Shown: piece after piece, positions 9,192-64,000 of the stretch
How positions within the stretch are numbered: the first letter of the stretch is position 1
Layout of the letters: each line of letters opens with the position of its first letter
The notes under the pieces: generated by a model
The model's input: only the letters and a program-made list of their open reading frames with translations
What the model was told of the DNA's origin: nothing
The model's database searches: none
Origin: Bacteroides nordii WAL 11050 = JCM 12987
GTDB taxonomy: Bacteria > Bacteroidota > Bacteroidia > Bacteroidales > Bacteroidaceae
Direction of reading: 5' to 3'
Assembly (NCBI GenBank): GCA_000613465.1
Contig: BAJA01000001.1
Location: 186,001-250,000, forward strand
DNA: 64,000 bases
Program-made: the position numbers and the translations under genes

Positions 9192-10391
9192 ATGAATACT
9201 CTTTGGATTGAAATCATCTTTTGGATAGCCCTCTTCATCGTGTTCTACACGTATCTGGGCTATGGTATCGTTCTCTACCTGCTCGTAAAGCTGAAAGAGC
9301 TTTTGATAAAACCAATAAAGCGAAAACTGCCCGAAGACAGTACACTGCCCGAAGTAACGCTCTTTATCACTGCTTTCAACGAAGAAGAGGTGGTGGACGA
9401 AAAGATGAAAAATTCTCTCGAACTGGACTATCCAGAGGATAAACTACACATCGTATGGGTGACAGATGGTAGTAATGACGGAACAAACGAACAGCTACGC
9501 ACTCGTTGGGAAGGAAAAGCCACCGTACTCTTCCAACCCGAACGACAAGGAAAAACTGCTGCGATGAACCGGGGTATGAAGTTGATAAACACGCCTATTG
9601 TAGTGTTTACTGATGCCAATACGATGGTAAACCAGGAGGCTATCCGCGAAATCGTATTGGCGTTTGAGGATACACGCGTAGGCTGTGTGGCCGGAGAGAA
9701 ACGAATTGCCGTACAAACACGGGATGGTGCAGCTGCCGGAGGAGAAGGTATCTACTGGAAATATGAATCAACCCTGAAAGCCTTGGATGCACGACTGTAC
9801 TCGGCCGTAGGAGCGGCTGGAGAACTGTTTGCCGTACGCCGGGAATTGTTTGAAGAGATGGAGCAGGATACATTACTGGACGACTTCATCCTCTCACTGC
9901 GTATTGCCATGCAAGGACATACAATCGCTTATTGTACAGAAGCATACGCTATCGAAAGCGGATCGGCAGATATGCACGAAGAAGAAAAACGAAAAGTACG
10001 CATCGCTGCCGGAGGTCTGCAATCTATCTGGAGACTGCGCCCGTTGCTGAATCCGTTCCGCTATGGGATACTGAGTTTCCAATATGTATCGCACCGGGTA
10101 CTACGATGGTCGCTCACTCCCATACTGTTGTTTCTGTTATTGCCATTCAATACGCTATTACTGTGTATGGGAGCTTCGTGTGAGATCTACGGAACGATTC
10201 TGATACTTCAGATATTGTTCTACATTCTGGGACTTGGGGGGTATTACCTGTCAACACGACAGATAAAAAACAAACTGCTGTTTATTCCTTATTATTTTCT
10301 TTTTATGAACGTCAATGTACTGAAGGGAATAGGATATCTGAGGAAAAAACGTGGAACCGGTGCGTGGGAAAAGGCTAAAAGAGGGAAATAA
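9192..10391 (+). CDS. membrane-bound GT2 family glycosyltransferase
   Basis: This 399-residue protein has an N-terminal membrane helix (about residues 6-32), a cytoplasmic GT-A domain (VTLFITAFNEEEVVD, IVWVTDGSNDGTNE, VVFTDANTMV, DTLLDDFILS) and two or three C-terminal helices (about 310-375). That layout is like cellulose/hyaluronan-synthase type or poly-GlcNAc synthase type transferases (CESA-like). The strict QxxRW motif of processive synthases is absent; KVRIAAGGLQSIWRL lies at that place, so it may add single sugars. It is the last gene of the glycan operon before an AT-rich repeat gap. Confidence 0.85.
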   Translation: MNTLWIEIIFWIALFIVFYTYLGYGIVLYLLVKLKELLIKPIKRKLPEDSTLPEVTLFITAFNEEEVVDEKMKNSLELDYPEDKLHIVWVTDGSNDGTNEQLRTRWEGKATVLFQPERQGKTAAMNRGMKLINTPIVVFTDANTMVNQEAIREIVLAFEDTRVGCVAGEKRIAVQTRDGAAAGGEGIYWKYESTLKALDARLYSAVGAAGELFAVRRELFEEMEQDTLLDDFILSLRIAMQGHTIAYCTEAYAIESGSADMHEEEKRKVRIAAGGLQSIWRLRPLLNPFRYGILSFQYVSHRVLRWSLTPILLFLLLPFNTLLLCMGASCEIYGTILILQILFYILGLGGYYLSTRQIKNKLLFIPYYFLFMNVNVLKGIGYLRKKRGTGAWEKAKRGK

Positions 10392-10397
10392 ATCCTC

Positions 10398-10457
10398 ATA
10401 AATCATAATTCAACATCCTCTCATAATTCATGAATCATAAACCATAAATCATAATAC
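10398..10457. repeat. CATAA/TTCATAAT short-unit repeat in intergenic gap
   Basis: The gap between the last glycosyltransferase and the sensor kinase is built mostly of the unit (AA)TCATAATTCA in several imperfect copies. The same unit occurs at 266-291 in the gap beside the LruC gene. Similar low-complexity AT repeats occur in many Bacteroides intergenic regions. Confidence 0.5.
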
Positions 10458-10460
10458 CAT

Positions 10461-13110
10461 ATGGACAGAACATTACATGACGCGCAGAACGCCAAAAAAA
10501 TACTGCAAATCACAGCTGATACAATGATACTGGTAGATCAGGATGGGACTTGCGTAGACATTGATACACACAGTAATCTTTGGTTTCTGCAGGAAGAGAA
10601 ACTATTGGGAAAAAACATATTTGATTTATTGCCTCTGTATACCCGTCAGAAGCTGGTCCCGATTTTCCGGCAGGTTATAGACAAACAAAAAAAGTGTTAG
10701 CAAAAACTATAAATTAGAATTGGCAGAGGGAACGTATTACTTCAAATGTATCATGTATCCTTATGAGGATAAAGTACTTTGCCAATATCGGGATATCACG
10801 GCTCGAAGCAATGTGAAACTACAGCTGGAACGCACCAATCATGAATTAAGAGAGATTCAAAAGGCTGCCCAGATCGGACAATGGAAATACGTCAGTAAAG
10901 AACGGATGTTCTATTACTGGGGATACACAGGTATCCTCTGTGGAGAAGCACAACGCTCTATTCCAATCGAACGTTACTATGAGATGATAGTAGAGGAAGA
11001 CAAAAGTCTTTTTGCTAAGTGGCTGGAGAATAATGAGAAAGAAATGAATGAAAATAGCACAAGCTACCGCATTAACTATGATGGCGAAGTATATTATCTG
11101 AGAATACAAACGTACACCCGGGAAGAACTGTCCGATGGGACATTTTACATGGAAGGATATGTACAAAATGTGACGGATATACAACGCCATCGGAATGATA
11201 TAAATACGCTTACACATGCTATCAACAATGCCAAAGAAAGTATTTTTGCTGCCCGGAAAGATGGCACACTGATATTCGCCAACAGATTATTCAAAGAGAA
11301 TCACGGAATATCGGAAGAAGATAAATTAAACCTGTATAAGATCTATGAACTGGCCGGTGATATAAACACAGCCGAAGACTGGCAACAGAGGTATAAGCAA
11401 ATAAATGAAGGAGGTTACTGTAACTTCATCGCGTATCAGCCGATACCCGGTAACAAGAAGATATTAGCCTTTGAGGGAACAATGTATCACGTAACAAGTG
11501 ACGAAGGGGAAAGTAGCTACTGGTCATTCACACATGATATCACAGAACGCCTGCATTACGAATCGCAGATAAAACGCCTGAACAGTATCATGGATACCAC
11601 GATGGAAAATCTGCCGGCAGGCATTGTGGTCAAAGATGTAAATAGCGATTTCTGCTATATATACCGTAACCGGGAGTCATATAACCGGGATATGAGTTTT
11701 GAGAACGAAACCACAGGTATGACTGATTTTGACTACTATCCGCAGGAGGTGGCCGAGCAGAAGCGAAAAGAAGATATGGAGGTTGCTACCACCGGAAAAT
11801 GCAAACACTGGGTGACGGAAGAAAAAGATAAGAATGGAAATCTGATTATCCTGGATAAACAGAAGATAAAGGTAGAAGGGAAAGACTTTTCACCGGTTGT
11901 CATCAGTATTGAATGGGACATCACACAGTTGGAACTGATGAAGCGGGAGTTGATGATTTCTAAAGAAAAAGCAGAAACATCGGATAATATGAAGTCGGCT
12001 TTTCTGGCAAACATGAGTCACGAAATACGTACCCCACTAAATGCCATCGTAGGATTCTCACGCCTCATAGCAGAAAGTGAGAATGCTGACGAAAGACAAG
12101 AGTACTATACCATTGTAGATGCCAACAATGAACGGTTACTTCAACTGATCAATGAGATATTGGACTTATCAAAAATAGAATCGGGTATTGTAGAATTTAC
12201 TTATGCTCCTGTAAGGCTAAATGGATTATGTAAGGAGATTCATGATGCACATGTGTTTCGTACTCCGCAAGGTGTACAACTACTGTATGAACCTTCAAAT
12301 GAAACAACTATTATTGACTCTGACAAGAATCGTATCTTCCAGGTATTGTCCAATCTGATAGGAAATGCCTTAAAGTTTACAACAGAAGGGAGTATCAGTT
12401 ACGGATACCGACAAGAAGGAGAAAAGGTGATCTTCCATGTGACGGATACAGGAACAGGCATCGCAGCAGATAAAGTGAACAAAGTGTTTGAACGCTTTAT
12501 GAAACTGAATAATACGGCACAAGGAACGGGACTCGGCCTTTCTATCTGCAAGACAATCATTGAACGGCTGGGCGGAGAGATCTCCGTAACCTCAGAAATA
12601 GGAAAAGGAACAACATTCACTTTTTGGCTACCTGCAAAATTCAATGTGGAAACAGAACCATCTACACTGGCAAAAGAGTCTTTACCTACAAATACGGAAA
12701 ATAACACAGCTACCGTAGAATTACAACCCGGCAATGTAGATAAAGGAACAGACATGCCAACCATTCTCATTGCTGAAGATACGGACAGTAACTATGATCT
12801 GCTGAATGCAATACTGAAAAAGAATTATAATCTGACACGTGCACGAGATGGTATGGAAGTAGTAATGATGTTTGAAGAAGTAAAACCGGATCTAATATTA
12901 ATGGATATCAAAATGCCCAACCTGAATGGATTGGAGGCTACCAAGATCATTCGTGAACTATCTCCGGATGTACCTATCATCATGCAAAGTGCATTTGCTT
13001 ATGAATATGACAGGAATGCCGCTGCGGATGCAGGATGTACAGAGTTTATCCCAAAGCCGATAGCACAAGAGAAATTAAAAACAATTATAAAGAAATACTT
13101 AAAGAGCTGA
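10461..13110 (+). pseudogene. PAS-domain hybrid sensor histidine kinase, one frameshift
   Basis: The intended product is about 882 residues with no membrane segments: several N-terminal PAS-like sensor domains (VDQDGTCVDIDTHSN in the first), a HisKA dimerisation box (NMSHEIRTPLNAIVGF; phospho-His codon at 12019-12021), an HATPase domain (NLIGNALKFT, DTGTGIAADK, GTGLGLSICK) and a C-terminal receiver (LMDIKMPN; phospho-Asp codon at 12904-12906, Lys in FIPKPI). This is a cytoplasmic two-component hybrid kinase; its signal is unknown. The frame breaks in a run of seven A (about 10687-10693): with six A, reading passes through as KSVSKNYKLELAEG. An output partner is not obvious nearby. Confidence 0.85.
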
Positions 13111-13144
13111 CAATTGACAGTTGACAATTGTCAATTAAACAATT

Positions 13145-14218
13145 ATGGGAAAAAGAGCTGTATTCAAACTATTTTATTGCATATCAATTGTAATAACCTT
13201 TATACTGGCAGGTATAACTCTGGCAGGAGCTTTCTCCGGTTACGCATCTCCGGACAAATACATTGGCTTTGCCTTTATAGGCCTTGCATTGCCGGTATTA
13301 TTGCTGATAAATCTTATCTTACTTATCTATTGGACCACACGGCTCCGTATATGGTTACTTATCCCCCTTATCGCCATCCTTGGCAACTGGGCATACCTGA
13401 ACCGGATTATTCAGTTCTCTTCTCCGAATACAGCTAAAGCATCACTAACTCTCGCTACCTACAACGTAGATGCTTTTAATGGAGATCAGACCGGATATTC
13501 CTGTAAAGAGATAGCCCGCTTCATGGAGGAACAAGGTGCAGATATCCTGTGTATGCAGGAATTTGGCAGTAACCGTGAGTTCAATGAGGATAGTGTAAAG
13601 CAGGTCCTTTCTGCATGGCCCTACTATTCTATACCCAAACCAACAGACGGAACGTCCATTTTGCAAGTAGCTCTGTTCAGCAAGTATCCCATCCAAAATA
13701 CTGTACTTATCACGCATCCGGACAGCAGAAATTGTAGTATGCAATGCGATATCAATGTGAATGGAAAAACAATCCGTATCTTCAATAACCATCTCCAGAC
13801 AACAGAGGTGAGCAGTAACAAACGTATTTTAGAAAAAGAACTCGCTACAGAGAATACCACTGGTACTGAAAATGCAATTCATAAACTGGCAGCAGGACTG
13901 GAAGAGAATTTTGTGAAACGTGCTGCTCAAGCAGCAAAACTGCATAGGATGATAACCGCTTCCCCCTACCCTACACTGGTATGCGGTGACTTCAACTCAC
14001 TGCCTTCATCCTATACATATCGCACCATGAAAGGCGATAAACTAAAAGATGGCTTTCAAACCTGTGGACATGGATATATGTACACTTTCCGCTATTTCAA
14101 GAAACTGTTGAGGATTGACTATATCCTACACACAAAAGACTTTGAAGGGTTGGATTATTTCTCTCCGGAAGTGGATTATAGCGATCATAAACCAGTGTTG
14201 ATGAGAATGAAGATATAA
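13145..14218 (+). CDS. membrane-anchored endonuclease/exonuclease/phosphatase family protein
   Basis: The 357-residue protein has three N-terminal membrane helices (about residues 10-32, 40-62, 66-86), then an EEP (DNase I-like) domain facing the periplasm. The family catalytic landmarks are present: TYNVDAF, MQEFG (metal Glu), NNHLQTTE, GDFNSLPSS (Asp-Asn), RIDYIL and YSDHKPVL (final Asp-His). The family hydrolyses phosphodiester or phosphate bonds in nucleic acids, sphingolipids or inositol phosphates; the real substrate is unknown. A short palindromic tract (CAATTGTCAATT type, 13108-13143) lies just upstream, and a strong terminator follows the stop. Confidence 0.85.
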   Translation: MGKRAVFKLFYCISIVITFILAGITLAGAFSGYASPDKYIGFAFIGLALPVLLLINLILLIYWTTRLRIWLLIPLIAILGNWAYLNRIIQFSSPNTAKASLTLATYNVDAFNGDQTGYSCKEIARFMEEQGADILCMQEFGSNREFNEDSVKQVLSAWPYYSIPKPTDGTSILQVALFSKYPIQNTVLITHPDSRNCSMQCDINVNGKTIRIFNNHLQTTEVSSNKRILEKELATENTTGTENAIHKLAAGLEENFVKRAAQAAKLHRMITASPYPTLVCGDFNSLPSSYTYRTMKGDKLKDGFQTCGHGYMYTFRYFKKLLRIDYILHTKDFEGLDYFSPEVDYSDHKPVLMRMKI

Positions 14219-14282: not shown

Positions 14283-16198
14283 TTATTCAACCTTTACAAC
14301 ATCACCTACATGTATAAAGTTTGAACCATCATAATTAAACTGCATAGTATAGTTATTTCTTGTACCAGATTCTGCAGGATTAAGATACACTGAGAATGTT
14401 ACATAATAATCCAATGTAATACCATCTATATCACTCTTTGCATCGGGATACATCCCCTTAAGCATAATACATAAACCTTCGGCAGCACGTTTAAACATAA
14501 AGGCAGCTTGTTCTTCGACATCTGTAATTTTTGCTAATTCAGGATCTTTACCATATCTATCCACACGGTCAGAAACTTTAAAGTTAAAATTACCTTGATA
14601 TTCGCTTGCACCATAATAGTATTCAGCTGTACCATAACTATCTACATAAGTAGAATTGGTTTCTTTCACATAGTCAACAATACGTTGCAAATTACCATCA
14701 CCTTTAGATATCACATAATAGATAGAAGGATCGTAGATCCATTTTCCATTACCAACATTCACAAATTGCGAAGTAATATCAACCACTGCTGTATTTTTGG
14801 CCCATACTTTATCACTACCCAGCTTATATTCAGCAGCTTCAGCTACAACAGTTTTACTTCCACTATCGTAATTTTTATAAACAAGGGTCTTTACGTCACC
14901 TATCTGTGCATAAGGTAACATTTTAGCCAAATATGCTGGTAGATAATTCTCTGGTAACTTAGAAGACCCAAAATCTGTTATCCCCATAGCAGCATAATCT
15001 TCTGGTGTCAATATAAGTACATCCTTTTTGTTAAACGGTTTCCAATCTACACCATCAAACTGATACATAGCATTAAATGGCTTTTCATGCGTAGGGGCCA
15101 TACGAGTAGTGGAGATAGAAACATTATCAAGCTGATAAGTGGAAGTAATCGTAGCAGAGCCTACATACTTAAATGCAATATATAATCCTTTGCCTGCATA
15201 TTTACTCAGATCAGCCATCCCAGGTGAATACCATTCAGTGTAGTTGTTACCTGCATTCTGAAATTTGAAAGCAGAGGTAATATCTTCCCAGTCCTCATCT
15301 TTTAAATTGGCAGTTCCGTCATAAGTAGTAGAAACCATCACATGTAAAGCGTCGCCTACATGGTAGCCAATCTTTGCATCGAAAGTCAAAGATGCACCAT
15401 CAACGATGTTTGTTTTAGGACCAACTAACCAAGATACATTATCTCCGGTAGCACCAAAAGCAGAACATTGTACGTAACGATTATCATTGTAAAACTTACC
15501 AACCCAATTTTTAGTACCAGATGCATTTATTACCTGCCAACCTTCTACATTACCGTTGATTGTACCCGTAGCTTTACTATCGTGAACATCCAATGATTCA
15601 AATTCTTGTTGATACAGATCATCTCCAACTTCAATTGTAGGTTCTTCGGTATCGTATTTATAATCAACCAATACTAAGTCTCCCTTCTTTGCATTTGTTT
15701 TAACATTAGTCAATACTTTAGGAAGATACTCAACAGGAGATTTTTTTGGAGTCAGAAAGTTCACTACAGTTTCATCACCCCATACAAAAGCATAAGCATC
15801 ATCTTTCAGTTCATAAGTTTCTGTTTTAGACATCTCAAGAACCGTTTCAGGCAATGCATCCTGATAGGCATATGTAACTTTTACAGTTGATTTCTTACCC
15901 CAATCAGCATATGATTTGGCAAGAAGCGCTGGAATATAATCCTCTGCTTTTACTAATTCATTCAATGTATTAGTAGATTTAACTGCATTTGCAGCAGCTT
16001 TCTTTTCTGCCGTAATATTTTCTTCAGCAAGCACAAGTTTACTTATACTTGTATAATCGGCTGCAACCAATGTATATTCTCCAGACTTGACTACAGGACT
16101 TGACTTTCATCAATTTCATTATAGATGTCATTCATCGGATCACAGGCTACCAATCCCAACAAAAGAAAGGCACCCAAGATTGTATGTTTTTTATTCAT
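14283..16198 (-). pseudogene. repeat-containing choice-of-anchor-J type lipoprotein, frameshifted near start
   Basis: From ATG at 16198 the product has a signal with lipobox LVAC (Cys19), then the frame breaks at about 16098-16106 and resumes as VVKSGEYTLVAADYTSISK. The full protein would be about 638 residues. It has three copies of a module of the form Y-(I/L)-P-x2-L-(x)n-G/K-x-V-x-V-x-Y-x-Y (YIPALLAKSY, YLPKVLTNVK, YLPAYLAKML) and a central beta-sandwich (about residues 160-300 of the mature region, SLTFDAKIGYHVGDAL) like 'choice-of-anchor J'/MAM-type carbohydrate-recognition domains. It lies 32 bp after a TonB receptor gene in the same direction, so it is probably the receptor's surface partner. 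Ligand unknown. Confidence 0.7.
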
Positions 16199-53483: not shown

Positions 53484-54782
53484 ATGATAGCAGAGTTCAG
53501 CATTGAGAATTTTTTCTCCATTAAATCGGTTCAAAAAATCAGTTTTGAGCCATCGGCAGATACTTTTATGTCTAATGAGTATTCGTATGAAGTTAAGGAC
53601 GGGGTAAGATTGCTGAAAGTGGGAATCATCTACGGTGCCAACGCTTCCGGTAAAACGAATATATTGAATGCCATCGAATTTTTCAAGATGTTGGTTTTGA
53701 GAATGCCTAAAGACCGGACCGAGAAAACCGGGGTTGTCCCTTTCATGTTGGATGATACTTCAAGGAACGAAAAGACAAAGATGTCAATGGTGTTCTATAT
53801 CAATCAGTCGAAGTACATTCTCAGTTTTGAATTGGACGCAAAGCATATCTATTCCGAGACATTGATTGTTTATGATTCCATTCGCCCGACCAAGCTGTAT
53901 AACCGAAGTTATGATACCGTGACAGATTCCTCGACTATCGACTTTGGCGTAAATCTGAAAATGACAAAGAAAAGCCAGGATGTAATTTCCGGCAACACTA
54001 TCAATAATTGCAGTGTGCTTGCCGCATTTGGCAAAAGCAATGTGGAACGGACAAGGCTGAATGATGTGTACGATTATTTTGCCAAGCAGGTCAAAGATGT
54101 ATTGGCTCCCGGTATGTTGCTTTCGGGATATGTCAAATCACGATTGGATAAAGACGAGGCAGGAGATTTGAAGAAATTCATTTTAAATTTCCTGAAAGCG
54201 TCCGATTTCAATATAGAAGATGTGGTATTAAACGAAGAGGAAGAGCTGATTACCCCTGAATTGGAACAACTGATTCAGAATGCCCCTATTGATAAAGATG
54301 CAAAGGCTGAAATGCTTAGAAAGGGGAAAATTACAAATACGGAACTGACCTTCAAGCATAAGGCTGGCGATAAAGTATATGATTTGTCGGAAGAATACGA
54401 GTCCAATGGCACTATGAGATTCCTGGGAATGGCGGTGATACTGAATTTCCTGTTAAAGACCAATCGGTTTGTACCCATTGATGAAGTGGAGACAAGTATT
54501 CATTATGAACTGTTGGCTTATTTCCTGAAAGTCTTTCTGGCAAACAGCGACGGAACATCCCAAATGCTCCTGACCACACATGACATCAATCTTCTCAACG
54601 AGGATTTCATTCGCCGTGATACGATATGGTTCACCGACAAAGACGAACTTGGCGAAACTAAAATAGTACGCCTGTCTTCTTTGGGACTGCATAAGAATCT
54701 TTCCCCATACAATGCTTACAAGCAGGGAAAATTGGTAAAGTTGCCGTTCTTGGGTAGTCAGTATATCAACCTGAATGACTAA
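53484..54782 (+). CDS. AAA family ATPase, AbiLi/RloA-like
   Basis: A 432-residue ATPase: Walker A YGANASGKTN (about residues 50-59), a long insert, Walker B PIDEVETSIHY (about 330-340) and TTHDINLLN. This is the OLD/RloA class ATPase that pairs with RloB proteins; the pair is known as AbiLi/AbiLii abortive-infection or retron/anticodon-nuclease-linked systems. It should act as the sensor/energy part. It overlaps the RloB gene by 8 bp if the latter starts at 54775. No damage is seen. Confidence 0.85.
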   Translation: MIAEFSIENFFSIKSVQKISFEPSADTFMSNEYSYEVKDGVRLLKVGIIYGANASGKTNILNAIEFFKMLVLRMPKDRTEKTGVVPFMLDDTSRNEKTKMSMVFYINQSKYILSFELDAKHIYSETLIVYDSIRPTKLYNRSYDTVTDSSTIDFGVNLKMTKKSQDVISGNTINNCSVLAAFGKSNVERTRLNDVYDYFAKQVKDVLAPGMLLSGYVKSRLDKDEAGDLKKFILNFLKASDFNIEDVVLNEEEELITPELEQLIQNAPIDKDAKAEMLRKGKITNTELTFKHKAGDKVYDLSEEYESNGTMRFLGMAVILNFLLKTNRFVPIDEVETSIHYELLAYFLKVFLANSDGTSQMLLTTHDINLLNEDFIRRDTIWFTDKDELGETKIVRLSSLGLHKNLSPYNAYKQGKLVKLPFLGSQYINLND

Positions 54783-55395
54783 TGATATGGGACGGACAGT
54801 AACAAAAAGTATCGCCATCATAGGCGAAGGAGAAACGGAATGGTTCTATTTCGACTCTCTGAGGATTGCGTGTCGGTATCCTTTCAAGGTTGCGCCGGAT
54901 TTTCCGCAGCACAGCGACATCAATCATATTTTGAAACTGGTAGAATCCTATTTGAACAAGCAATACGACTTTATCGTATGCCTGTTTGATATGGACAGAT
55001 TATTCCAGTTTCCATCTGAAATGCAGTTGTATCAGCGGGCAAAGAAAGAGTATAGCAAGAAGAAATATGCCGGAAAGGTTCTGTTCGTAGAAACGAATCC
55101 CTGCACGGAGTTTTGGTTTCTACTCCATTTCTTGCCTAATGTGGTTTGTCGGCGATATGAAAGTTACGACCAACTGCTTCCCGTATTGCAGAAATATATG
55201 CCGGGGTATGAAAAGACAAAGCGATATTTCATACGCACCAACCTCTATAAATACCTGACAGAGAATGGCGATTTGGAACGGGCGATGTCAAACTCAGAAA
55301 AGTTATGTCAACTTTGCAAGGAATCGCCAGAGGATTTGAAAGCATACTCAGAGATTCACCAGGTTATCAAATTATTAAATAATAATTCTATATGA
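54775..55395 (+). CDS. RloB family Toprim-like protein, AbiLii-like
   Basis: A 206-residue protein. IIGEGETEWFYFDSL (Glu pair) and VCLFDMDRLFQF (DxD) are the Toprim-like active site of RloB; VLFVETNPCTEFWFLLHF is the family's other conserved block. It is the probable nuclease effector of the preceding ATPase. ATG 54787 (MGRTVTKS) is a possible alternative start that would avoid the overlap. Its stop overlaps the next gene by 4 bp, so it is coupled to the Thoeris genes. Confidence 0.85.
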   Translation: MTNDMGRTVTKSIAIIGEGETEWFYFDSLRIACRYPFKVAPDFPQHSDINHILKLVESYLNKQYDFIVCLFDMDRLFQFPSEMQLYQRAKKEYSKKKYAGKVLFVETNPCTEFWFLLHFLPNVVCRRYESYDQLLPVLQKYMPGYEKTKRYFIRTNLYKYLTENGDLERAMSNSEKLCQLCKESPEDLKAYSEIHQVIKLLNNNSI

Positions 55396-55940
55396 CAAAA
55401 AGACAAGTATTTTACAGTTTTCATTTTAAGAATGACTCATGGAGAGCCGGACAGGTTCGGAATATTGGAGTAGTAGAAGGAAATATGCCAGTTTCTTCCA
55501 ATGATTGGGAAGAGGTTAAGCGCAAAGGTGATGATTCTATTAAAAGGTGGATTGATACTCATATGGATTATCGCTCTTGTGTTATTGTATTAATCGGTTC
55601 TGATACTGCATCAAGAGAGTGGTGTAGGTATGAAATTAAACATGCATGGAAAGAGGGCAAAGGAGTTGTTGGTATTTATGTGCATAATCTAAAGAACATT
55701 GAAGGAGAGCAGGATATAAAAGGAGATAATCCATTCAAATTATTCTGTATTGATAAGACATTTAACTATATAATCGAACATAAACATCCAGCTGATAGTA
55801 ACGAAATTAATTTGTCCGAAATATGTAAGACTTATGATCCTCCATATAAAATCAGTACCAATGTGTATGATTATATCAAAGAGCATATAAATGAGTGGGT
55901 AGAAGAGGCCATTAGAATTCGTAATCAGTATCCTAAATAA
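55392..55940 (+). CDS. thsB1: Thoeris ThsB-like TIR protein (first)
   Basis: A 182-residue single-domain TIR protein of the DUF1863/ThsB type. QVFYSFHFKNDSWRAGQVRN is the N-terminal strand and loop, VIVLIGSDTASREWCRYEI holds the catalytic-type Glu (about residue 80). ThsB senses phage and makes a cyclic ADP-ribose isomer signal from NAD+. ATG at 55392 overlaps the RloB stop. The SIR2 gene starts 9 bp later. This copy differs strongly from the second TIR gene. Confidence 0.88.
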   Translation: MTKRQVFYSFHFKNDSWRAGQVRNIGVVEGNMPVSSNDWEEVKRKGDDSIKRWIDTHMDYRSCVIVLIGSDTASREWCRYEIKHAWKEGKGVVGIYVHNLKNIEGEQDIKGDNPFKLFCIDKTFNYIIEHKHPADSNEINLSEICKTYDPPYKISTNVYDYIKEHINEWVEEAIRIRNQYPK

Positions 55941-55949
55941 ATTTTTGTT

Positions 55950-57365
55950 ATGCCAATAAATAAAAATGTTTTCATAAAGAATTATCTTAGTGCTCTTAAT
56001 AATGGTGATGCTGCTATATTTGCAGGTGCTGGATTGTCTGCTCCAAGTGGATGCGTTAATTGGAAGCAATTGCTAAGAGAGATTGCCGAGGAATTGGAGC
56101 TTGATATTGAAAAGGAGTCAGATTTGGTAGCGATAGCACAATACTATTACAATAAAAATGGATGTAATCGAACAAAATTAAATGATATAATTAAAGATGC
56201 TTTCCAGACAGGAAAACAACCAAATGTTAATCATAATATACTCGCTAAATTGCCTATTTTTACATATTGGACCACAAACTATGATAAACTAATAGAAAAG
56301 GCATTGGAGAATAATGGTAAGATCTGTGATATAAAAACTTGTTGTGCGAACCTCACGACTACTTTAAAAGGACGCAATGTTGTAGTTTATAAAATGCATG
56401 GAGATGTTGATCATCCAGAAGATGCTGTATTGATTCGCGATGACTATGAGTCATATAATCAAGAAAAGGCGCCTTTTATAAATACATTATCCGGAGACTT
56501 AATGACAAAAACATTTTTGTTTATAGGCTTTAGTTTTACGGATCCTAATTTTTATTATATATGTGCACATTTAAGGGCACGTCTAAAAGGAAATATGAGG
56601 GAACATTATTGTTTCCTGAAAGATGTTTCTAAAACAGATTATAAAGATGAGGACGAATTTAAATATGAGAAGAGAAAACTATCATATTTTATTGATGACT
56701 TAAAACGATTCAATATAAAAACCGTGCTTATTCAAGAATACTCAGAGATAACTGAAATATTACAAAGTATAAAGAGGGTTTATAATGGTCGTACAGTATA
56801 TCTATCTGGTGCGGCAGCTGAATACAACCCAGATGGTAAAGACGCATATGAAAAATTTATAAGTAAATTAAGCGGTCGCTTAATTTACGAAGGATATAAA
56901 ATAGTTTCAGGATATGGTTTAGGTGTGGGTAGTGCGGTAATAAGTGGTGCTCTTTCTGAAATATATTATAATCAGAAAAAATCGCTTACAGACCAATTAA
57001 TTCTGAGACCTTTTCCACAAGGTGACGATGCAAAAGAAATGTGGGAAACTTATAGACAAGACATGATATCTTATAGTGGTATATCAATCTTCTTGTTGGG
57101 TAATAAGAAAGAAAGTGGAACTATTGTTCCATCTAATGGAATGCGGTCAGAATATGAAATTTCAAAAGAACAGGGTAACTTCCTAATCCCTATTGGTAGA
57201 ACAGGATATATATCTAAAGAATTATGGAATGAGTTATTGGAAGAAAGACAAGACGACCATACTTTTGATATTTATCGACATGATATTGAGTCTTTGGGCG
57301 ATGATACAAAAACATTAGACGAAGTAATAGAAATAGTAATAGAGTTAATTAAAAAAGTAAAATAA
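55950..57365 (+). CDS. thsA: Thoeris ThsA: SIR2 NADase with C-terminal SLOG/STALD domain
   Basis: The 471-residue product has an N-terminal SIR2 domain (FAGAGLSAPSG, residues 24-34; WTTNYDKLI about 106-114; KMHGDVDHP about 148-156; FIGFSFTDPNF) and from about residue 280 a SLOG/STALD domain (TVYLSGAAAEYN, IVSGYGLGVGSAVISGAL). This is type I ThsA. Binding of the TIR-made signal to the STALD pocket triggers tetramer or filament formation and NAD+ depletion. Flanked on both sides by TIR genes in a tight operon. Confidence 0.92.
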   Translation: MPINKNVFIKNYLSALNNGDAAIFAGAGLSAPSGCVNWKQLLREIAEELELDIEKESDLVAIAQYYYNKNGCNRTKLNDIIKDAFQTGKQPNVNHNILAKLPIFTYWTTNYDKLIEKALENNGKICDIKTCCANLTTTLKGRNVVVYKMHGDVDHPEDAVLIRDDYESYNQEKAPFINTLSGDLMTKTFLFIGFSFTDPNFYYICAHLRARLKGNMREHYCFLKDVSKTDYKDEDEFKYEKRKLSYFIDDLKRFNIKTVLIQEYSEITEILQSIKRVYNGRTVYLSGAAAEYNPDGKDAYEKFISKLSGRLIYEGYKIVSGYGLGVGSAVISGALSEIYYNQKKSLTDQLILRPFPQGDDAKEMWETYRQDMISYSGISIFLLGNKKESGTIVPSNGMRSEYEISKEQGNFLIPIGRTGYISKELWNELLEERQDDHTFDIYRHDIESLGDDTKTLDEVIEIVIELIKKVK

Positions 57366-57367
57366 CT

Positions 57368-57979
57368 ATGGCACATAAAACATTTATTTCTTATAAATAT
57401 AGCGAAGCGCAGGATCTTCGCGATAGGATAATAAAGGCATTGGGGGATGATGCGAGTTACTATCAAGGAGAAACAAGTGATTCTCCTGATTTAACAGATA
57501 CGTCTACTGAGAATATAAAGAAGAACCTAAAAGATATGATGTATGACACATCTGTAACGATTGTAATTATTTCTCCGCATATAAAAGAAAGTAAGTGGAT
57601 TGATTGGGAAATTGAATATTGTCTTAAGAATATAACAAGAAAAAATAGGACATCGCATACTAATGGGGTTGTTGGTGTTATAATGAAAGTAAATGGGGGC
57701 TATGACTGGTTTAAATACACCTCAACTAAACCAGATGGATGTTCTGTTACTAATTATTATGATTCAAAGGTTTATGATATCATAAACAATAATAGATATA
57801 ACCAATATCCTAAAGTGTATTCTTGTAATCAATGTAAATGTGTAAACGCATTGACTGGTTCTTATATTGCTTTTGTTGAAGAAGATGAGTTTTTGTCAAA
57901 TCCTCAAAAGTATATTAACAATGCCTATGATAAAAGTGAAAAGGATGCAGAAGGATATAACTTAACAAAACAACGATAG
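57368..57979 (+). CDS. thsB2: Thoeris ThsB-like TIR protein (second)
   Basis: A 203-residue TIR protein: HKTFISYKYSEAQDLRDRI at the start and ISPHIKESKWIDWEIEYCL with the catalytic Glu (about residue 81). A long C-terminal part has CNQCKC and an acidic stretch. It starts 2 bp after thsA. It belongs to another ThsB branch than the first TIR, so the locus may respond to two phage cues through one ThsA. Confidence 0.88.
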   Translation: MAHKTFISYKYSEAQDLRDRIIKALGDDASYYQGETSDSPDLTDTSTENIKKNLKDMMYDTSVTIVIISPHIKESKWIDWEIEYCLKNITRKNRTSHTNGVVGVIMKVNGGYDWFKYTSTKPDGCSVTNYYDSKVYDIINNNRYNQYPKVYSCNQCKCVNALTGSYIAFVEEDEFLSNPQKYINNAYDKSEKDAEGYNLTKQR

Positions 57980-58270: not shown

Positions 58271-58305
58271 GAGGGCAAGAATGATACTTGCCCTCATTTA
58301 TTTTT
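58271..58305. terminator. rho-independent terminator between convergent units
   Basis: GAGGGCAAG (58271-58279), 7-base loop, CTTGCCCTC (58287-58295), then ATTTATTTTT. It ends the small-protein unit from the left and, with the A-rich left flank, may also serve the restriction gene coming from the right. Confidence 0.88.
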
Positions 58306-61300
58306 ACATTGGCCTTATCATTGATTCCATGAAGGATATTTCATCTTCTGAGAGACTGTATTTTGCATAGAGTTGTTGGTCAATTTCGGGAATACTCTTA
58401 CTCCAATCAATATCGGATTTTGATGTAAAGTCTTGCAACGGGACAAAACGAAAGACATCCTGTGACACCTGCATTGTTCCTCTTCCAAAAAATAGCAGTA
58501 TTCTGAAAAAATTGGATTTGAGATATTTATTTGCATTTTGCTGTTCTATTGAATTATCAAATGGTCCAATTACGAGAAAAGTTTCACTACAAATAACATT
58601 AGGTGAAGCTAAAATTATTTCGGGAGGAACAATTGCATCAGCAGAATAAGCTTTTGATATAAATAATTTGTATTTATTTATCCATGCTTTATTTTTAGTG
58701 ATAGCATCGATTGCTATATAACTGGTTATTCGTTTTGCCCCTCCTTTTATACCATAAACGCCCCATAGTAAAGCTGAATTCACAAAAGGTTTGTCACTTA
58801 ATTTATACTCAGTATAAACTGATTTATTGTTAAAAATATCTGTGCTTATACCAAAAGGTTTACGAGCTGACACAATTTGACTAAATGAAGGATATTTAGA
58901 AGTCTTAGTTATTATCGCTTGTCGACGACTATCCCTAATAACTATATCAGAGTTGCCATCAGTTAGTAATCGTTTTGTCAAGAAGCGATTGCCGTTTGTA
59001 GGTTTATAGAAATATATCAATTCACCAGAATGTTTCTTATCCCAAAGGAAATACATAATACCACCGTCTATATGTTGACCATTAAAACAAAATCCAGAAT
59101 CTTCATAATCGAAAACACTTGCAAGATGTTTATCTTTCATCATCTCTTTTCTAAAAGGTTTAAGAACGGCCTTTCCTCCAATCATCCATTTAGATGGCAT
59201 AATTAATGAAAAATAATTAGGGCAAATCTGTTTTGCTATTTTTACAAATACTTGATATATAGGATTGGCTGCATCATCAGAAGCTCCACTACCATCATTT
59301 ATTTGATACGGTGGATTCCCCACTATCGCATTGATTTTCATGTTCTTTATTCCTGTTCTTTCTGTGATGAATTTATCTACCTGCTTGATAAAATGTTCAG
59401 GTTTGTTTTTGATTTGATTGATTAAGTCCTCGAAATATCGGGTGTTTACCTTCGCTTTGCGGAAACCTATAAGGGTGCGTTTGGTGATACTCTTTGCCAT
59501 CGGAGTTTTACAGATGACGAAGATGTTTTCAGCCACTACCTTATCCCATATTCGTTGTTCATCTTCGATACTTGACACCGAGAACAGAGAGTTCTTTACC
59601 CTTGTGCGATAAATGCTATATGCCATATAAAGAGGATATAATCCAGACTTTGAATTTATTTCAAGGATTCGGGAATCCGGGGCGAATACATTGGATGTCA
59701 CTTCGCCCCGGTCTATGAAACGAGGCTCAGATAAAGTGGTTTCATAACCCTTTTCAAAGAAGTTATATCCGCCCAGACAGTCACCAAGGTGCATATTGAC
59801 GACACGCCAAGGCGTAAGCACCGTTTCCTTGTCGGGATTGCGGAACGTGCTGAATATATCCGTTATACGCTCGATGCGTTCTTCCACGCTTAGTTTGTCT
59901 GCGGCACGAGCCATGGCACGGATGCGCTTGCCTGCCGCACAAAATATTTCCGGGTCGTAATATTTCTTGATGCTGTTGAACTTCTGTTTGGTAACACCCT
60001 TGGGCATGAACTCCTCCCACGATTGCGGGTCAATGAGTGAAGCGAAGTTGTCAATCGTTATATCTTGACTCTCATCGCTCAACTCTGCACCGTAGATAAG
60101 CAATGGCATACGGATGGAGATACCCCGAAGGATGGAAATGGCGGCCTCGCGGTTGTTCTTTTTCTTTTTCAGTTCTTCAAGACGCTTCTTCTCTTCTTCC
60201 GTCAAAGGTTGCTTGTCCTTGCCGCGTTTCTTGGATTTCTTTTCAAGGTCTTCAAGTTCCTCGTATTGCTCATCGGTCAGCCCTTGGTTGTTGATGTCCA
60301 CCTGATTGGTCTTTGGCATTGCCTTGGTCTGGCCGATAATCTTTTTCAGGTCGTCAAACTCCTGCAATTCCAAGTCGTTGAGTTTCATTAACTCATCATT
60401 ATATAGGCTCTTGTCCTCAAAACCGTTGCGGACCACACGTTCCACATAAACACGTTTAAGTTGTTCCAACATCTTGGGTACATCGAACTGGCTCATCTTG
60501 GAACCTTCGATGGAGATAATCGGACAGAAGTTCAGGAACTCGCCCATAATCTTGCGGTCGTTACCGCTGGTTTTTCCTGCCTTGGAAGAAATCTTTGCTG
60601 TCTCGGCAATGACTTTCAGTGTTCTGTCAGGCGCAAAGTCAAACACATAACACTGTTCCTTGACACGTCCGTTGATGGTGGCAGGAGTCTGCACACGGAA
60701 GATGGTCTGCATATAACTTGATGCAGCGGTATTATAAGAGCCGGACAACATGAATACGCCCGTCCACGCCTTGACACTGACACCCGTGGTCAATCGTCCG
60801 CAAGACAAGGTAATGGTACGGGTGGCATCAGGGTCTTTGCCGATGGCTTCTTCCACCGCAGCAAGAGCATCCTTGCTCTCTTCGTCCTCGTCACCGTCTC
60901 CTGCCACATTCACTACCTTGAAATGCTGGAATACAGGATGCGATTGCAGTAAAGCACTCATGGCACGAGCCTCCTTCACGCCCGGCAACATCCATAGCGT
61001 ATGCCGGAAGATGTTGCGGTATTCCTCGTTGGCAAACGGATAGCAACTATCCTTATCCTCCTTGGAAATAAGATTCAAAAATGCCTTCACATCTTTTTCA
61101 TGAATAAAGTTTCCAGCTTCATTGACCCGAAAAAACTCGCGGAAGTTGAAAGCCACATCTTCATCCACGAACTCATGGAGTAACCGTCCAAGGTCGTAGG
61201 TATAGATGTTCATCGTAGGTAGAGAGGCGTATGGATTTGGATCACCGAAATGGGTCAAATCCCATGAAGCCTTTGCCCGTTGCTCCATCACATAGTCCCA

Positions 61301-62293
61301 GGTATAAATCTCGTCCTCCTTGAAGTCGTCCAACAGGTTGAACGGAGTGCCGGAAAGTCGCAATATCTTGGTATTCGCTTTTGTCAGTTCCTGCATGACA
61401 GCCTTGCCGAGTTCCGTCTGTGTCCCTTCGTGCGCTTCGTCCACGATGATGCAATCCCAAGCGGTGGCAAACACTTCATTGTTCTTGTCAAAATTGCCGC
61501 CCACAAGTTCAGAACCGCGCAAATCCTGCATGGAAGCGAAATACACATATTGGCATTTACCCTGTTTTGCTCTCGCTTCAAGTGAAGCATGATTGTCACC
61601 ATTGTTCTTTGAACCGTATGCAAAACCGGGACTGTCATAGAATATCCTGCCGAAATCCTCGAACCAGCCGCTATTCACCACAGGGCGATGGGTAAGAATC
61701 AGAGTACGACTGAAATCCATGTCTTTCACCACCTGCAAGGCTGACAGCGTCTTGCCGAAACGCATCTTAGCGTTCCAAAGCATTTGGTTACTTTTCCTGA
61801 ATTGCTTTTTTGTTTTTTCAATAGCCTCCTGTTGTTCGGGACGGAACACAATCGGCGTTTGGTCGTGTGACACCTCGGTCGATGACAACGATTCTCGTCC
61901 TTCCTTCACGGCTGCGATTGCCCGCTTGACGGTTTCAAGGTCGGTGATGAACCACTCGTTGGCTTTGTTCTCGGTATCGAATATCTTTTTTCTGATGCCG
62001 GAACGTTCTAGAACGCTATGCACTTCCTTGTCGTTAAAAGAGCACAAGCCCTTTTTACTGTTGTATATCGTAAGTTCCGTATATAAGAGGTCGTATGCGA
62101 TACCAGCCGTCTGCGTATATTGGTTGATGCGTTTCTTCGCGGATTCGTTGAGAGCCTTGCTGTTCGGAGCAAGACCGAAAACATTGTCATTGTCACAAGT
62201 GGCCTCGCCCACTTTCAGGCATCCCCTATGTGCAGCATCATTGATGCGGAACACATATATCAGTTTTAATTTTAGTGAAGATGTGAATTTCAT
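58304..62293 (-). CDS. single-chain restriction-modification enzyme: GIY-YIG-like + SF2 helicase + Eco57I-type methylase
   Basis: The 1329-residue protein has: residues about 8-125, a T5orf172/GIY-YIG-like nuclease (LIYVFRIND, LKVGEA, RINQYTQTAGIAYDLLY, FNDKEVHSVLE); about 150-560, an SF2 helicase (WNAKMRFGKTLSAL, CIIVDEAHEGTQ, ILRLSGTPF); a Lys/Glu-rich linker (about 680-720); about 850-1150, an N6-adenine methylase (NAIVGNPPYQ, about 984-993); and a C-terminal target-recognition part. It is like type ISP/LlaGI enzymes but with GIY-YIG in place of an Mrr-like nuclease. The last 330 residues are coded by clearly more AT-rich DNA. Partner gene 6 bp upstream. Confidence 0.82.
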   Translation of the reverse strand: MKFTSSLKLKLIYVFRINDAAHRGCLKVGEATCDNDNVFGLAPNSKALNESAKKRINQYTQTAGIAYDLLYTELTIYNSKKGLCSFNDKEVHSVLERSGIRKKIFDTENKANEWFITDLETVKRAIAAVKEGRESLSSTEVSHDQTPIVFRPEQQEAIEKTKKQFRKSNQMLWNAKMRFGKTLSALQVVKDMDFSRTLILTHRPVVNSGWFEDFGRIFYDSPGFAYGSKNNGDNHASLEARAKQGKCQYVYFASMQDLRGSELVGGNFDKNNEVFATAWDCIIVDEAHEGTQTELGKAVMQELTKANTKILRLSGTPFNLLDDFKEDEIYTWDYVMEQRAKASWDLTHFGDPNPYASLPTMNIYTYDLGRLLHEFVDEDVAFNFREFFRVNEAGNFIHEKDVKAFLNLISKEDKDSCYPFANEEYRNIFRHTLWMLPGVKEARAMSALLQSHPVFQHFKVVNVAGDGDEDEESKDALAAVEEAIGKDPDATRTITLSCGRLTTGVSVKAWTGVFMLSGSYNTAASSYMQTIFRVQTPATINGRVKEQCYVFDFAPDRTLKVIAETAKISSKAGKTSGNDRKIMGEFLNFCPIISIEGSKMSQFDVPKMLEQLKRVYVERVVRNGFEDKSLYNDELMKLNDLELQEFDDLKKIIGQTKAMPKTNQVDINNQGLTDEQYEELEDLEKKSKKRGKDKQPLTEEEKKRLEELKKKKNNREAAISILRGISIRMPLLIYGAELSDESQDITIDNFASLIDPQSWEEFMPKGVTKQKFNSIKKYYDPEIFCAAGKRIRAMARAADKLSVEERIERITDIFSTFRNPDKETVLTPWRVVNMHLGDCLGGYNFFEKGYETTLSEPRFIDRGEVTSNVFAPDSRILEINSKSGLYPLYMAYSIYRTRVKNSLFSVSSIEDEQRIWDKVVAENIFVICKTPMAKSITKRTLIGFRKAKVNTRYFEDLINQIKNKPEHFIKQVDKFITERTGIKNMKINAIVGNPPYQINDGSGASDDAANPIYQVFVKIAKQICPNYFSLIMPSKWMIGGKAVLKPFRKEMMKDKHLASVFDYEDSGFCFNGQHIDGGIMYFLWDKKHSGELIYFYKPTNGNRFLTKRLLTDGNSDIVIRDSRRQAIITKTSKYPSFSQIVSARKPFGISTDIFNNKSVYTEYKLSDKPFVNSALLWGVYGIKGGAKRITSYIAIDAITKNKAWINKYKLFISKAYSADAIVPPEIILASPNVICSETFLVIGPFDNSIEQQNANKYLKSNFFRILLFFGRGTMQVSQDVFRFVPLQDFTSKSDIDWSKSIPEIDQQLYAKYSLSEDEISFMESMIRPM

Positions 62294-62299
62294 ACTGCA

Positions 62300-63316
62300 C
62301 TATTTTATGAGGTCGATAAATCGGATTCGTTTTCCCATCTTTCCCGTTTCAGGGTCTTTGGCCCGCCAGTCCTTGATTTGGCAATAGACACCATTATGCC
62401 TGCGGATGTCATCTTTCTGACAGCCTTCGCATTGACTGACTTCTTCCCTTGTCCCGAACAAGTCGGCTACAATAGTCCGGCGTTCACCGCAACTGTTCGG
62501 GATGACACCTTTAAGCCCGTCCATCTGCCAGACGTTCCATGAAATGATGTAGGCGATATAATTGATGGATTTCAACAAGGGTCGCTTGCCGAACTTTTGT
62601 TGATAGTATTCGATAAAGGAGATAAGCATGGATTCACGGGCAATCAGCAAGTTATCGCCTTGCCATTCGTAAGCAAAAATGCTCTTATATGCTTCCTGTG
62701 CCCATTCCAACCATTCGCCGGAAGTTTCCGTGTTTTCGCCAACTACCCGCAACTTGCGGTCAAGCAGCCCGATACGCTGTTCTAAGGGAATAGCCTCCCC
62801 CGTTGTGGTGTCATATCGGCTTATAATATAAGGGGCTTCCCCGCAGGTTATCTCCAGTCGGTTGTCACGTACATAATCTTTCCAAGTCTTACCTTCCGGA
62901 AATTGAATTTTCTCTGAGTTGGGTCTCCACCGATGACAACCCTGTTCATCGGTGTACTCCGTATTGAACACATCCTTTCTTCCAAACCATGCTTCATCGA
63001 TCAGGTTGTTCTGCGCATTGCATATCCATGACGGAGTGAACACCTCTGCCATTTCTCGCGAACGTGCGGTTTGGGTGTCACGACTTTTGAGGATACGCGG
63101 CATGATGACATGCCCGTTATCTCCGGTAATAAGACTGGGAAGAATTGGCGAATCATATTGATACCCTTCGCCCAGATATTCATAATCGGAAGTAGCCCAA
63201 AAGATATTGCGCTGAATATCCTCCTTGCTCGTTGTATGGTCTTTGAGCAGGTTATTCAACAGTTCGGGCGAAAGCCGAAAGATACTATCTTCCAATATAT
63301 CAACTTCAACAGGCAT
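62300..63316 (-). CDS. restriction-modification partner protein with methylase-like N-terminal motif
   Basis: A 338-residue protein. Near residue 88 it has AEVFTPSWICNAQNNLID, the 'EVFTP' entry motif of N6-adenine methylases (SAM-binding side), but no NPPY motif; the large neighbour has that. A Cys cluster (CEGCQKDD) near the end could bind metal. The two proteins may therefore share a methylase function, or this one may supply specificity. It precedes the large gene by 6 bp, so they form one operon. Confidence 0.7.
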   Translation of the reverse strand: MPVEVDILEDSIFRLSPELLNNLLKDHTTSKEDIQRNIFWATSDYEYLGEGYQYDSPILPSLITGDNGHVIMPRILKSRDTQTARSREMAEVFTPSWICNAQNNLIDEAWFGRKDVFNTEYTDEQGCHRWRPNSEKIQFPEGKTWKDYVRDNRLEITCGEAPYIISRYDTTTGEAIPLEQRIGLLDRKLRVVGENTETSGEWLEWAQEAYKSIFAYEWQGDNLLIARESMLISFIEYYQQKFGKRPLLKSINYIAYIISWNVWQMDGLKGVIPNSCGERRTIVADLFGTREEVSQCEGCQKDDIRRHNGVYCQIKDWRAKDPETGKMGKRIRFIDLIK

Positions 63317-63567: not shown

Positions 63568-64000
63568 TCAAAAATCTTTCAGGATAAGGCTGTTTGCCTT
63601 GTCCACCACGCTTGTGTCAAGCGATGCGAGATAGATGCGCGTAGTCTCTTCCGAATCATGTCCCATGCCCTCGCTGATGACTGAAAGAGGGATGTTCTTG
63701 CTCTTGGCGACGCTCGCCCAACAATGCCGGGCAACGTGCATGGTCAGCGGTATGTTCAATCCTGCTAGACCGGCAACTTCCTTCAACGCCACATTGATGC
63801 GGCAGATGGCGTTACGGTATTGTGTCCGTTCATCGGAACAAGGGTTTGTGATTATCGGCAGGAGGTAGCGGGTGGCCGTATTCTCTCCATACTTGGCGAT
63901 AATGTCTTCCATGCACTTCTCCCATTTGACTGTGAGTTGCTGCCCGGTCTTTCTTCTACGGTACGTGATTATTCCGTTCTTCAAGTCCGATTTTTTCAGA
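63568..64000 (-). CDS. tyrosine recombinase, C-terminal half, cut by window edge
   Basis: The frame is open to the right edge and ends at 63568. The catalytic residues are HVARHCWAS (His-x2-Arg) and MGHDSEETTRIYLASL (Gly-His, nucleophile Tyr). It resembles Bacteroidales element integrases but differs from the one at 21164. It reads toward the restriction operon, suggesting that the restriction genes, and perhaps the whole defence island, belong to a second mobile element extending beyond the window. Confidence 0.85.
   Translation of the reverse strand, partial: LKKSDLKNGIITYRRRKTGQQLTVKWEKCMEDIIAKYGENTATRYLLPIITNPCSDERTQYRNAICRINVALKEVAGLAGLNIPLTMHVARHCWASVAKSKNIPLSVISEGMGHDSEETTRIYLASLDTSVVDKANSLILKDF

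Follow-up and report, generated by a model that had tools for sequence, protein, structure and literature searches.

A probable two-gene restriction-modification system of Bacteroides nordii with an adenine methylase apparently divided between two proteins

Here, we describe a two-gene system at positions 58304-63316 of a 64,000-nucleotide stretch of Bacteroides nordii WAL 11050 = JCM 12987 (contig BAJA01000001.1), referred to below as the window. The genes probably encode an ATP-dependent restriction-modification (R-M) system with an adenine methylase divided inside its catalytic domain. Judging from the sequences, the working methylase is most likely formed by the small protein (module A) together with the last part of the large protein (module C). 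C would serve as a specificity cassette, and a look-alike cofactor half in the large protein (N') would couple it to the nuclease-helicase part (R). We use A for the small gene, N' for residues 815-984 and C for residues 985-1329 of the large protein; a hyphen joins modules on one chain and a slash separates genes. See Table 1 for coordinates.

Both open reading frames are intact and lie on the minus strand, with the small gene (338 amino acids) upstream of the large gene (1329 amino acids) across a 6-nt gap. A preliminary description of this DNA had proposed a two-gene system here, and the pairing proved to be conserved, as tblastn found the small gene, whole or partial, in 78/84 loci. Among the six other loci, L023, L030, and L070 start within the large gene, and L081 has a divergent copy recognized by profile. 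L025 and L045 may lack A, because their 222 and 278 nt of upstream DNA show no small-gene end and the similarly short L056 does.

The pair is a member of a widespread family that databases file as a Type IIG restriction enzyme plus a methylase. PADLOC classes the large protein as REase_MTase_IIG (PDLC03626, strong match) and the small protein as MTase_II (PDLC03390, 1.9e-123), and the C half (985-1329) of the large protein also fits a second MTase_II model, PDLC03375. The small protein matches no Pfam family at E <= 1. Relatives are also found on plasmids, with 87 matching records; the 40 listed are mostly named Eco57I restriction-modification methylase domain protein.

Cofactor motifs of the small protein

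The small protein reads as the cofactor half of a gamma-class adenine methylase. It carries motifs X, I, and III (Table 1) as well as a motif II acid, E217, that is at least 90% conserved. The preliminary description had placed EVFTP in the small protein and NPPY in the large one, and we find them there, at residues 91 and 993, respectively. The motif I glycine is kept in 151/160 A frames, the rest being fragments or off-pattern variants. None of the 160 stand-alone A frames, some of which are fragments, has an NPPY-type motif IV ([NDS]PP[YFW]). In relatives with three genes, A reads LEPACGxGNF / YG[VI][DE] / GDAL in 14/14 listed, and the A proteins of L100 and L104 read DPSCGxGQF. A presumably binds S-adenosylmethionine (SAM).

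The AlphaFold2 model of A (predicted local distance difference test score, pLDDT, 89; predicted template modeling score, pTM, 0.88) shows half of a Rossmann fold, with three motif-bearing strands followed by strand pairs (279-294, 313-332). The nearest PDB folds, matched over N-terminal parts, are MmeI (Z 8.3), DrdV (7.2), LlaGI (7.0), BsaXI (6.8), and BrxX/PglX (6.2); the first 11 rows run from Z 8.3 to 5.2, and row 12 is at 3.6. A Z of 8.3 is weak by itself, and we would place the weight of this search on the uniform methylase family of the top rows. A Foldseek search of BFVD with A gave two matches at E <= 0.001, both named N-6 DNA methylase. Sequence searches of the PDB yielded no convincing solved relative of A or of the large protein.

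An altered cofactor half in the large protein

The NPPY half of the large protein is not bare, as N' has its own TP motif (residue 826) and a motif-I-like stretch (876). The divided methylase thus has to be drawn differently from the preliminary description: the motif split between A and C stands, along with natural A+C pairs and fusions, but the large protein carries N' as well. Pfam places an Eco57I methylase match across N' and C (922-1066, E 9.5e-29). In N', a lysine replaces the first glycine of motif I. This lysine is invariant in 41 aligned sequences and is found in at least 152/161 frames; the other nine are off pattern, and six of these were read by eye (the lysine is present in L119, L142, L161, and L168, STAG stands in L145, and L183 is canonical). 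At the motif II position, the sequence is VICKTPMA, without an acid. The motif II acid pattern occurs in 13/161 N' frames compared to 145/155 A frames of at least 150 amino acids. Six of the 13 are FGFDK and four are YAYEF, both of which we read as outside motif II, leaving three canonical cases (L183-L185). The contrast with A is sharpest in the three-gene relatives, where motif I of N' is DPxxK[ST]GVF in 16/16. In CamA, motifs I, II, and III each contribute one acid to SAM contact, according to the available part of PMC8187626. We infer that N' does not bind SAM.

Natural rearrangements of the modules

Next, we surveyed module architectures and classified 184/194 loci, the 194 being 213 loci less 19 repeats of another locus. 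Loci were chosen by a match to A, C, or the large protein, many end at contig ends, and the module thresholds are our own, so the counts are not natural frequencies. The window's form, A / R-N'-C, is found in 78 loci and A / N'-C / R in 44. C stands alone as A / C / R-N' in eight loci, plus L110 with a frame-shifted R; L158, L159, L165, and L171 represent a single element (their A genes are 99-100% identical), so at most five of the eight are independent. A is fused to C beside a separate R-N' chain (A-C / R-N') in three loci (L152, L160, L201), and A-C occurs alone in four, of which L172 is broken. The smaller classes are partly contig-end pieces. In the three A-C / R-N' and eight A / C / R-N' loci, R-N' stops 95-103 residues past the start of motif I, ahead of any NPPY (absence of NPPY shown for 7/11). 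As R-N' chains end without NPPY and fusions occur on either side, N' travels with R, and C can join either N' or A.

The A-C fusions of L109, L135, L154, L152, L160, and L201 have the order of a gamma-class methylase, with motif I before NPP(Y/F/W) and a recognition region after it. Two phages illustrate the A+C combination. Jumbo phage PTm1 has a 344-amino-acid stand-alone C, starting MKFDIIVGNPPYQ, that aligns with large-protein residues 985-1329 only (38%, E 5e-70), close to an A gene that is 57% identical to ours (L084 4576-7008). In Fusobacterium phage FNU4, A is joined directly to C in one 630-amino-acid frame (L109 5989-7878). The Pfam Eco57I match spans the join in FNU4 (178-371 = profile 9-171), and it covers profile positions 73-171 only on the stand-alone C of PTm1. 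A search of the complete PTm1 (224,680 bases) and FNU4 (44,440) records with residues 1-984 of the large protein (R and N') gave nothing at E <= 0.01, and the same holds for L135, L154, and L167, whose records are possibly fragments; L110, by contrast, has a match in its record (E 1.4e-97). The phage A + C genes are likely a self-protection against restriction systems of this kind. Since natural A+C pairs and A-C fusions occur without N', we take A to supply the working cofactor half. Of 27 stand-alone C frames, 21 are accompanied by an A in their locus; three of the 27 (L023, L043, and L055) derive from large genes that are broken.

Separately, PHROG 11371 is matched at its end (283-368) by an A-type query and in its middle (192-248) by a C half, a hint that phages may contain a circularly permuted C-A fusion. 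In a one-phylum sample, the A profile was found in 7/395 genomes (E <= 1e-8) and the C profile in 31/395 (E <= 1e-20).

These architectures also bear on how A and N' relate to C. In a tentative, more specific form of the divided methylase, which is compatible with the general one, A and N' would be alternative partners of a single C, giving methylation with A and restriction with N'. C is indeed fused to N' in the two commonest classes (78 and 44 loci) and to A in others (three A-C / R-N' and four A-C alone), N'-C is modeled as one domain, and the whole records of PTm1 and FNU4, like the possibly fragmentary ones of L154 and L135, have A+C and no R-N' match. However, a fixed three-part assembly accounts for the same fusions, and so the C fusions to N' and to A allow both a competition of A and N' for C and a joint assembly. 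Carried further, and with the same reserve, a shared C would methylate when on A with SAM, and on a counterfeit N' it would become the site recognizer of the GIY-YIG helicase nuclease, the exchange of half-domains deciding between marking and cutting. If true, C would be a free cassette that reprograms marking and cutting at once.

Exchange of the C cassette

Across 76 sequences, conservation of the large protein is high as far as NPPYQ and gives way to variability beyond it, and because of this variability we place the recognition region in C. Relatives that are 97-99% identical over residues 1-984 are yet only 23-39% identical over C (window vs L010: 98% and 23%), whereas C is retained in other close pairs (L003 vs L004: 97% and 92%). 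We compared breakpoints in 12 hand-chosen pairs. In seven of them, DNA homology runs 13-18 nt beyond the first NPPY base and stops where the NPPYQ codons end. Two further pairs stop about 80 nt earlier and then resume in a short block ending at NPPYQ, and in the remaining three, homology ends 85-119 nt before NPPY. In four of the 12, homology reappears at the 3' end in a further block of 111-150 nt. Furthermore, similarity of the small gene follows the constant part (r 0.84, pairs of 68 loci) and not C (r 0.21). These alignments show an exchange of C between strains at the NPPY codons, with A, N', and the nuclease-helicase held constant.

Spare cassettes are visible at two loci. L020 has two stand-alone C genes downstream of its large gene (10230-11279 and 14441-15487, plus strand), starting MKFNAVVGNPPYQ; they are 82% alike in DNA and both begin at the NPPY boundary. 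Downstream of the large gene of L086, and next to it, are a C cassette with no visible in-frame start (11936-12985, plus strand) and an inverted C cassette (13027-14001, minus strand), with a 33-bp inverted match of 97% at the NPPY codons. Phase-variable switching of specificity by the L086 cassettes is possible.

The nuclease and helicase part

The preliminary description had also assigned a GIY-YIG-like domain to the front end of the large protein. This holds by sequence and by the succession of secondary-structure elements in the model, but no fold or PDB-sequence match to a GIY-YIG enzyme was obtained, the domain not having been folded or searched alone. Residues Y13, K27, G29, R55, and D88 are invariant in 54 aligned N-terminal sequences. 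We tentatively take Y13, K27/G29, R55, and D88 to be the positions of the Tyr, the Lys/Tyr-Ile-Gly, the Arg, and the acid of GIY-YIG nucleases, with Asp replacing the usual Glu. The AlphaFold2 model has strand 9-16, strand 25-33, helix 46-60, strand 68-74, and helix 88-97, comparable to the GIY-YIG order, at a pLDDT of 63-87 (ten-residue blocks from 11 to 130, model of residues 1-1200).

The profile match is weak for the window's protein taken alone but holds across relatives. With the whole large protein, T5orf172 matches residues 53-128 at E 0.043 and 14.8 bits, under the 20-bit Pfam cut-off; restricting the search to the N-terminal 140 residues raises the score to 20.1 bits, only just over that cut-off. 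T5orf172 matches 53/54 N-terminal sequences, the window's included, at E <= 1 (best 8e-6), and the MUG113 model matches 40/54, the window's fragment falling below the MUG113 cut-off. Separate R proteins score higher on T5orf172, at 26.8 bits (L101) and 20.7 bits. No Mrr family matched the large protein at E <= 1 in Pfam; T5orf172/MUG113 matched instead. In the genome search, the T5orf172/GIY-YIG profile gave 0 matches at E <= 0.001. A fold search with the large model returned rows for the helicase and methylase parts only, and the absence of GIY-YIG rows there is uninformative. Together, sequence and model support a GIY-YIG-like N-terminal domain.

The nuclease domain is followed by a superfamily 2 (SF2) helicase-like ATPase. 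Pfam ResIII matches residues 149-318 (E 9.7e-14), and the model from residue 145 to about 615 matches SF2/SNF2/UvrB motors in the fold search. The second helicase lobe (residues 501-610) is poorly modeled, with a pLDDT of 40-56.

Table 1. Features of the two-gene system (positions in the window; residues of the protein concerned)
Feature	Position	Strand	Basis
Large gene, R-N'-C: GIY-YIG-like nuclease, SF2 helicase, N', C	58304..62293	-	Open reading frame, Pfam, PADLOC, model, fold matches
Module A, small gene, 338 amino acids: predicted SAM half of a gamma-class adenine methylase, without motif IV	62300..63316	-	Conservation in 78 sequences, PADLOC, AlphaFold2, fold neighbors
Motif X of A, EVFTP, residues 91-95	63032..63046	-	Motif reading and alignment
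Motif I of A, LEITCGEAPY, residues 154-163	62828..62857	-	E155, C158, E160, P162, Y163 invariant (alignment A1, 74 sequences)
Motif III of A, WQMDG, residues 263-267	62516..62530	-	Motif reading and alignment
GIY-YIG/T5orf172-like nuclease domain, residues 8-130	61904..62272	-	Invariant Y13, K27, G29, R55, D88; T5orf172 profile; model
SF2 helicase-like ATPase (ResIII), about residues 145-620	60434..61861	-	Pfam, fold matches
N', residues 815-984, altered motif I (EINSKSG) and motif II (CKTPMA)	59342..59851	-	Motif alignments, model
Altered motif I of N', ILEINSKSG, residues 876-884; K882 instead of first glycine	59642..59668	-	Alignments
Module C, residues 985-1329: catalytic NPPY half and putative target recognition region, exchangeable cassette	58307..59341	-	Alignments
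NPPYQ codons, residues 993-997: motif IV, left boundary of the exchanged cassette	59303..59317	-	DNA comparison

Genomic neighborhood

Two other gene sets lie next to the pair on the plus strand. A Thoeris set (55392-57979) comprises a ThsB-like TIR protein (55392-55940), a ThsA SIR2-STALD protein (55950-57365), and a second ThsB-like TIR protein (57368-57979). An AbiL-like pair (53484-55395) comprises an AAA ATPase (AbiLi) and an RloB-like protein (AbiLii). Just upstream of the small gene is a tyrosine recombinase (window 63568-64000, minus strand) that continues in L089 (4569-5780), and a relaxase/mobilization-like gene, read by eye, lies farther upstream (L089 6571-7623). Because these genes all lie nearby, the surroundings are probably a mobile defense cluster. 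A tyrosine recombinase adjoins the small gene in 17/88 loci, counting only close matches upstream of it. We considered this enzyme as a shufflon recombinase and rejected it, as it is absent beside the small gene in L020 and L086, which carry spare C; we take it to be the integrase of the element. Contig L001, from Bacteroidaceae bacterium IMSAGC_004, is near-identical to the window's contig.

Proposed mechanism and alternatives

In the mechanism we propose, A would bring the methyl donor SAM, and C, the last 345 residues of the large protein, would bring the NPPY catalytic pocket and target recognition. A and C together would mark the host's own sites. On unmarked DNA, C would recognize the same site, with N' coupling it to the helicase and the GIY-YIG-like nuclease, and the nuclease-helicase, judging from its domains, would translocate and cut. 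New specificities arise, as the sequences show, by replacement of C at the NPPY codons, leaving A, N', and the nuclease-helicase unchanged. The methylated base is presumably adenine because of NPPY and the family membership. We speculate that marking of the second strand would need another cassette or another methylase, a role that the spare C genes could fill.

Several observations weigh against this mechanism. AlphaFold2 folds N'+C of the large protein into a complete Rossmann methylase (residues 829 to 1097, strand 4 at 989-992, NPPY at 993-996), and in the window's protein the partner of C may accordingly be N' and not A. The altered motifs of N' are nevertheless strongly conserved, and N' might bind SAM after all, in some unusual manner. 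A and N' do not appear to be recent duplicates, as a profile comparison shows no similarity between them. For A itself, the best Z score of 8.3 is near the chance level of the tool, and Foldseek found no match of A in the PDB at E <= 0.001. Six of the 27 stand-alone C frames have no recognized A in their locus, among them L121 (5878-7053), with none in 13 kb even by eye, and L146 (3103-7038) has R-N'-C with no A recognized in its 9 kb. On the side of the nuclease, a profile search of PDB sequences with the domain gave three rows, none of them a GIY-YIG enzyme. Finally, according to the available part of PMC9973331, no defense against phages was seen with yeeB and yeeC, the B. subtilis cousins of the helicase and the GIY-YIG protein, under the conditions tested.

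Some of these points would also fit a large protein that is a self-sufficient Type ISP/IIG restriction-methylase, with the small protein as a non-catalytic helper, such as a second methylase-like subunit for placing the complex or sensing SAM. The pLDDT of N'+C is mostly 78-94 (831 to 1100), dropping to 49 at 1001-1010 just past NPPY, within a model of residues 1-1200 with a mean of 75 and a pTM of 0.50. The best solved fold match of the methylase part is CamA, with 260 residues aligned at Z 18.9. Conservation is also strong in motif X of N' (LTPWRVVN), the database class is REase_MTase_IIG, and L146 is a locus of the expected kind. Yet we consider this explanation unlikely, as motifs I and II are altered in N' and intact in A, A-C pairs and fusions exist without N', and L152, L160, and L201 carry N' on a chain without any NPPY. 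Set against the description of a gamma-class enzyme (canonical SAM motifs I and II plus NPPY on one chain), the large protein alone has the NPPY and the fold, but a lysine in place of the first glycine of motif I and no acid at motif II. The preliminary description had named a complete methylase in the large protein alone as the finding that would speak against a division; one is present as a predicted fold, but not in cofactor motifs I and II.

The pair could also be a relic or an orphan methylase without restriction, as was concluded for DnmA-YeeB-YeeC of B. subtilis in the available text of PMC9973331. We regard this as improbable, given the intact long frames in many loci, the helicase residues that are invariant in an alignment of 63 sequences, and the placement of the pair in a cluster with Thoeris and AbiL genes. 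The same source reports that deleting the dnmA and yeeB homologues in Vibrio crassostreae raised the sensitivity to some phages.

The literature we covered, largely outside subscription journals, contains no description of a split methylase, a look-alike half, or how the pair works. If the divided methylase is correct, the pair stands for a common and apparently undescribed R-M class with a methylase active site assembled from two chains. One cassette would set the specificity of both methylation and cutting, offering a simple route to new specificities. It would explain the small methylase gene beside annotated complete enzymes of this family and show how phages take the methylating pieces only. 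The choice of one enzyme between marking and cutting would also become directly testable.

Comparison with known systems

The PADLOC models for the two proteins name parts only, and the model descriptions seen mention neither a split nor a look-alike half. The preliminary description likened the large protein to the Type ISP enzymes. According to the portion of PMC3874165 available, these are single chains with a nuclease, an SF2 translocase, a gamma methylase, and a C-terminal recognition region. The same order of domains on one chain links the large protein to LlaGI and LlaBIII, and VIA-align matches LlaBIII (4xqk) from model residue 145 to 1129, although with 640 residues at a root mean square deviation of 18 this speaks for the domain order only. 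We nevertheless reject membership in Type ISP, because the Mrr-like nuclease is missing and there is an extra conserved gene, A. Here, the nuclease is GIY-YIG-like, A lies beside the large gene, the cofactor half is altered, and the catalytic half is swapped together with the recognition region.

DnmA-YeeB-YeeC and the MmeI-like (Type IIL) enzymes likewise place a gamma adenine methylase by a helicase and a T5orf172/GIY-YIG protein (PMC9973331, available part), and MmeI is the best fold match of A. However, DnmA is one gene, and its helicase and nuclease are two genes; in our pair, the methylase appears split into A and C, and the rest is joined to N'. Precedents for a GIY-YIG domain in the available part of PMC1564403 are HsdR of Methylococcus and an Slx1-like GIY-YIG fused to an NPPY methylase; that part describes neither an N-terminal GIY-YIG helicase-methylase chain nor a divided methylase.

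CamA and other single-chain gamma adenine methylases share the fold of N'+C, but CamA has all motifs in one chain. The Type 1 1/2 methylases, such as M.AhdI with its M and S subunits, are also gamma methylases made from separate chains (PMC3874165, section 31). In M.AhdI, the split lies between the catalytic and recognition parts, whereas in the system described here it would lie inside the catalytic domain, between motifs III and IV.

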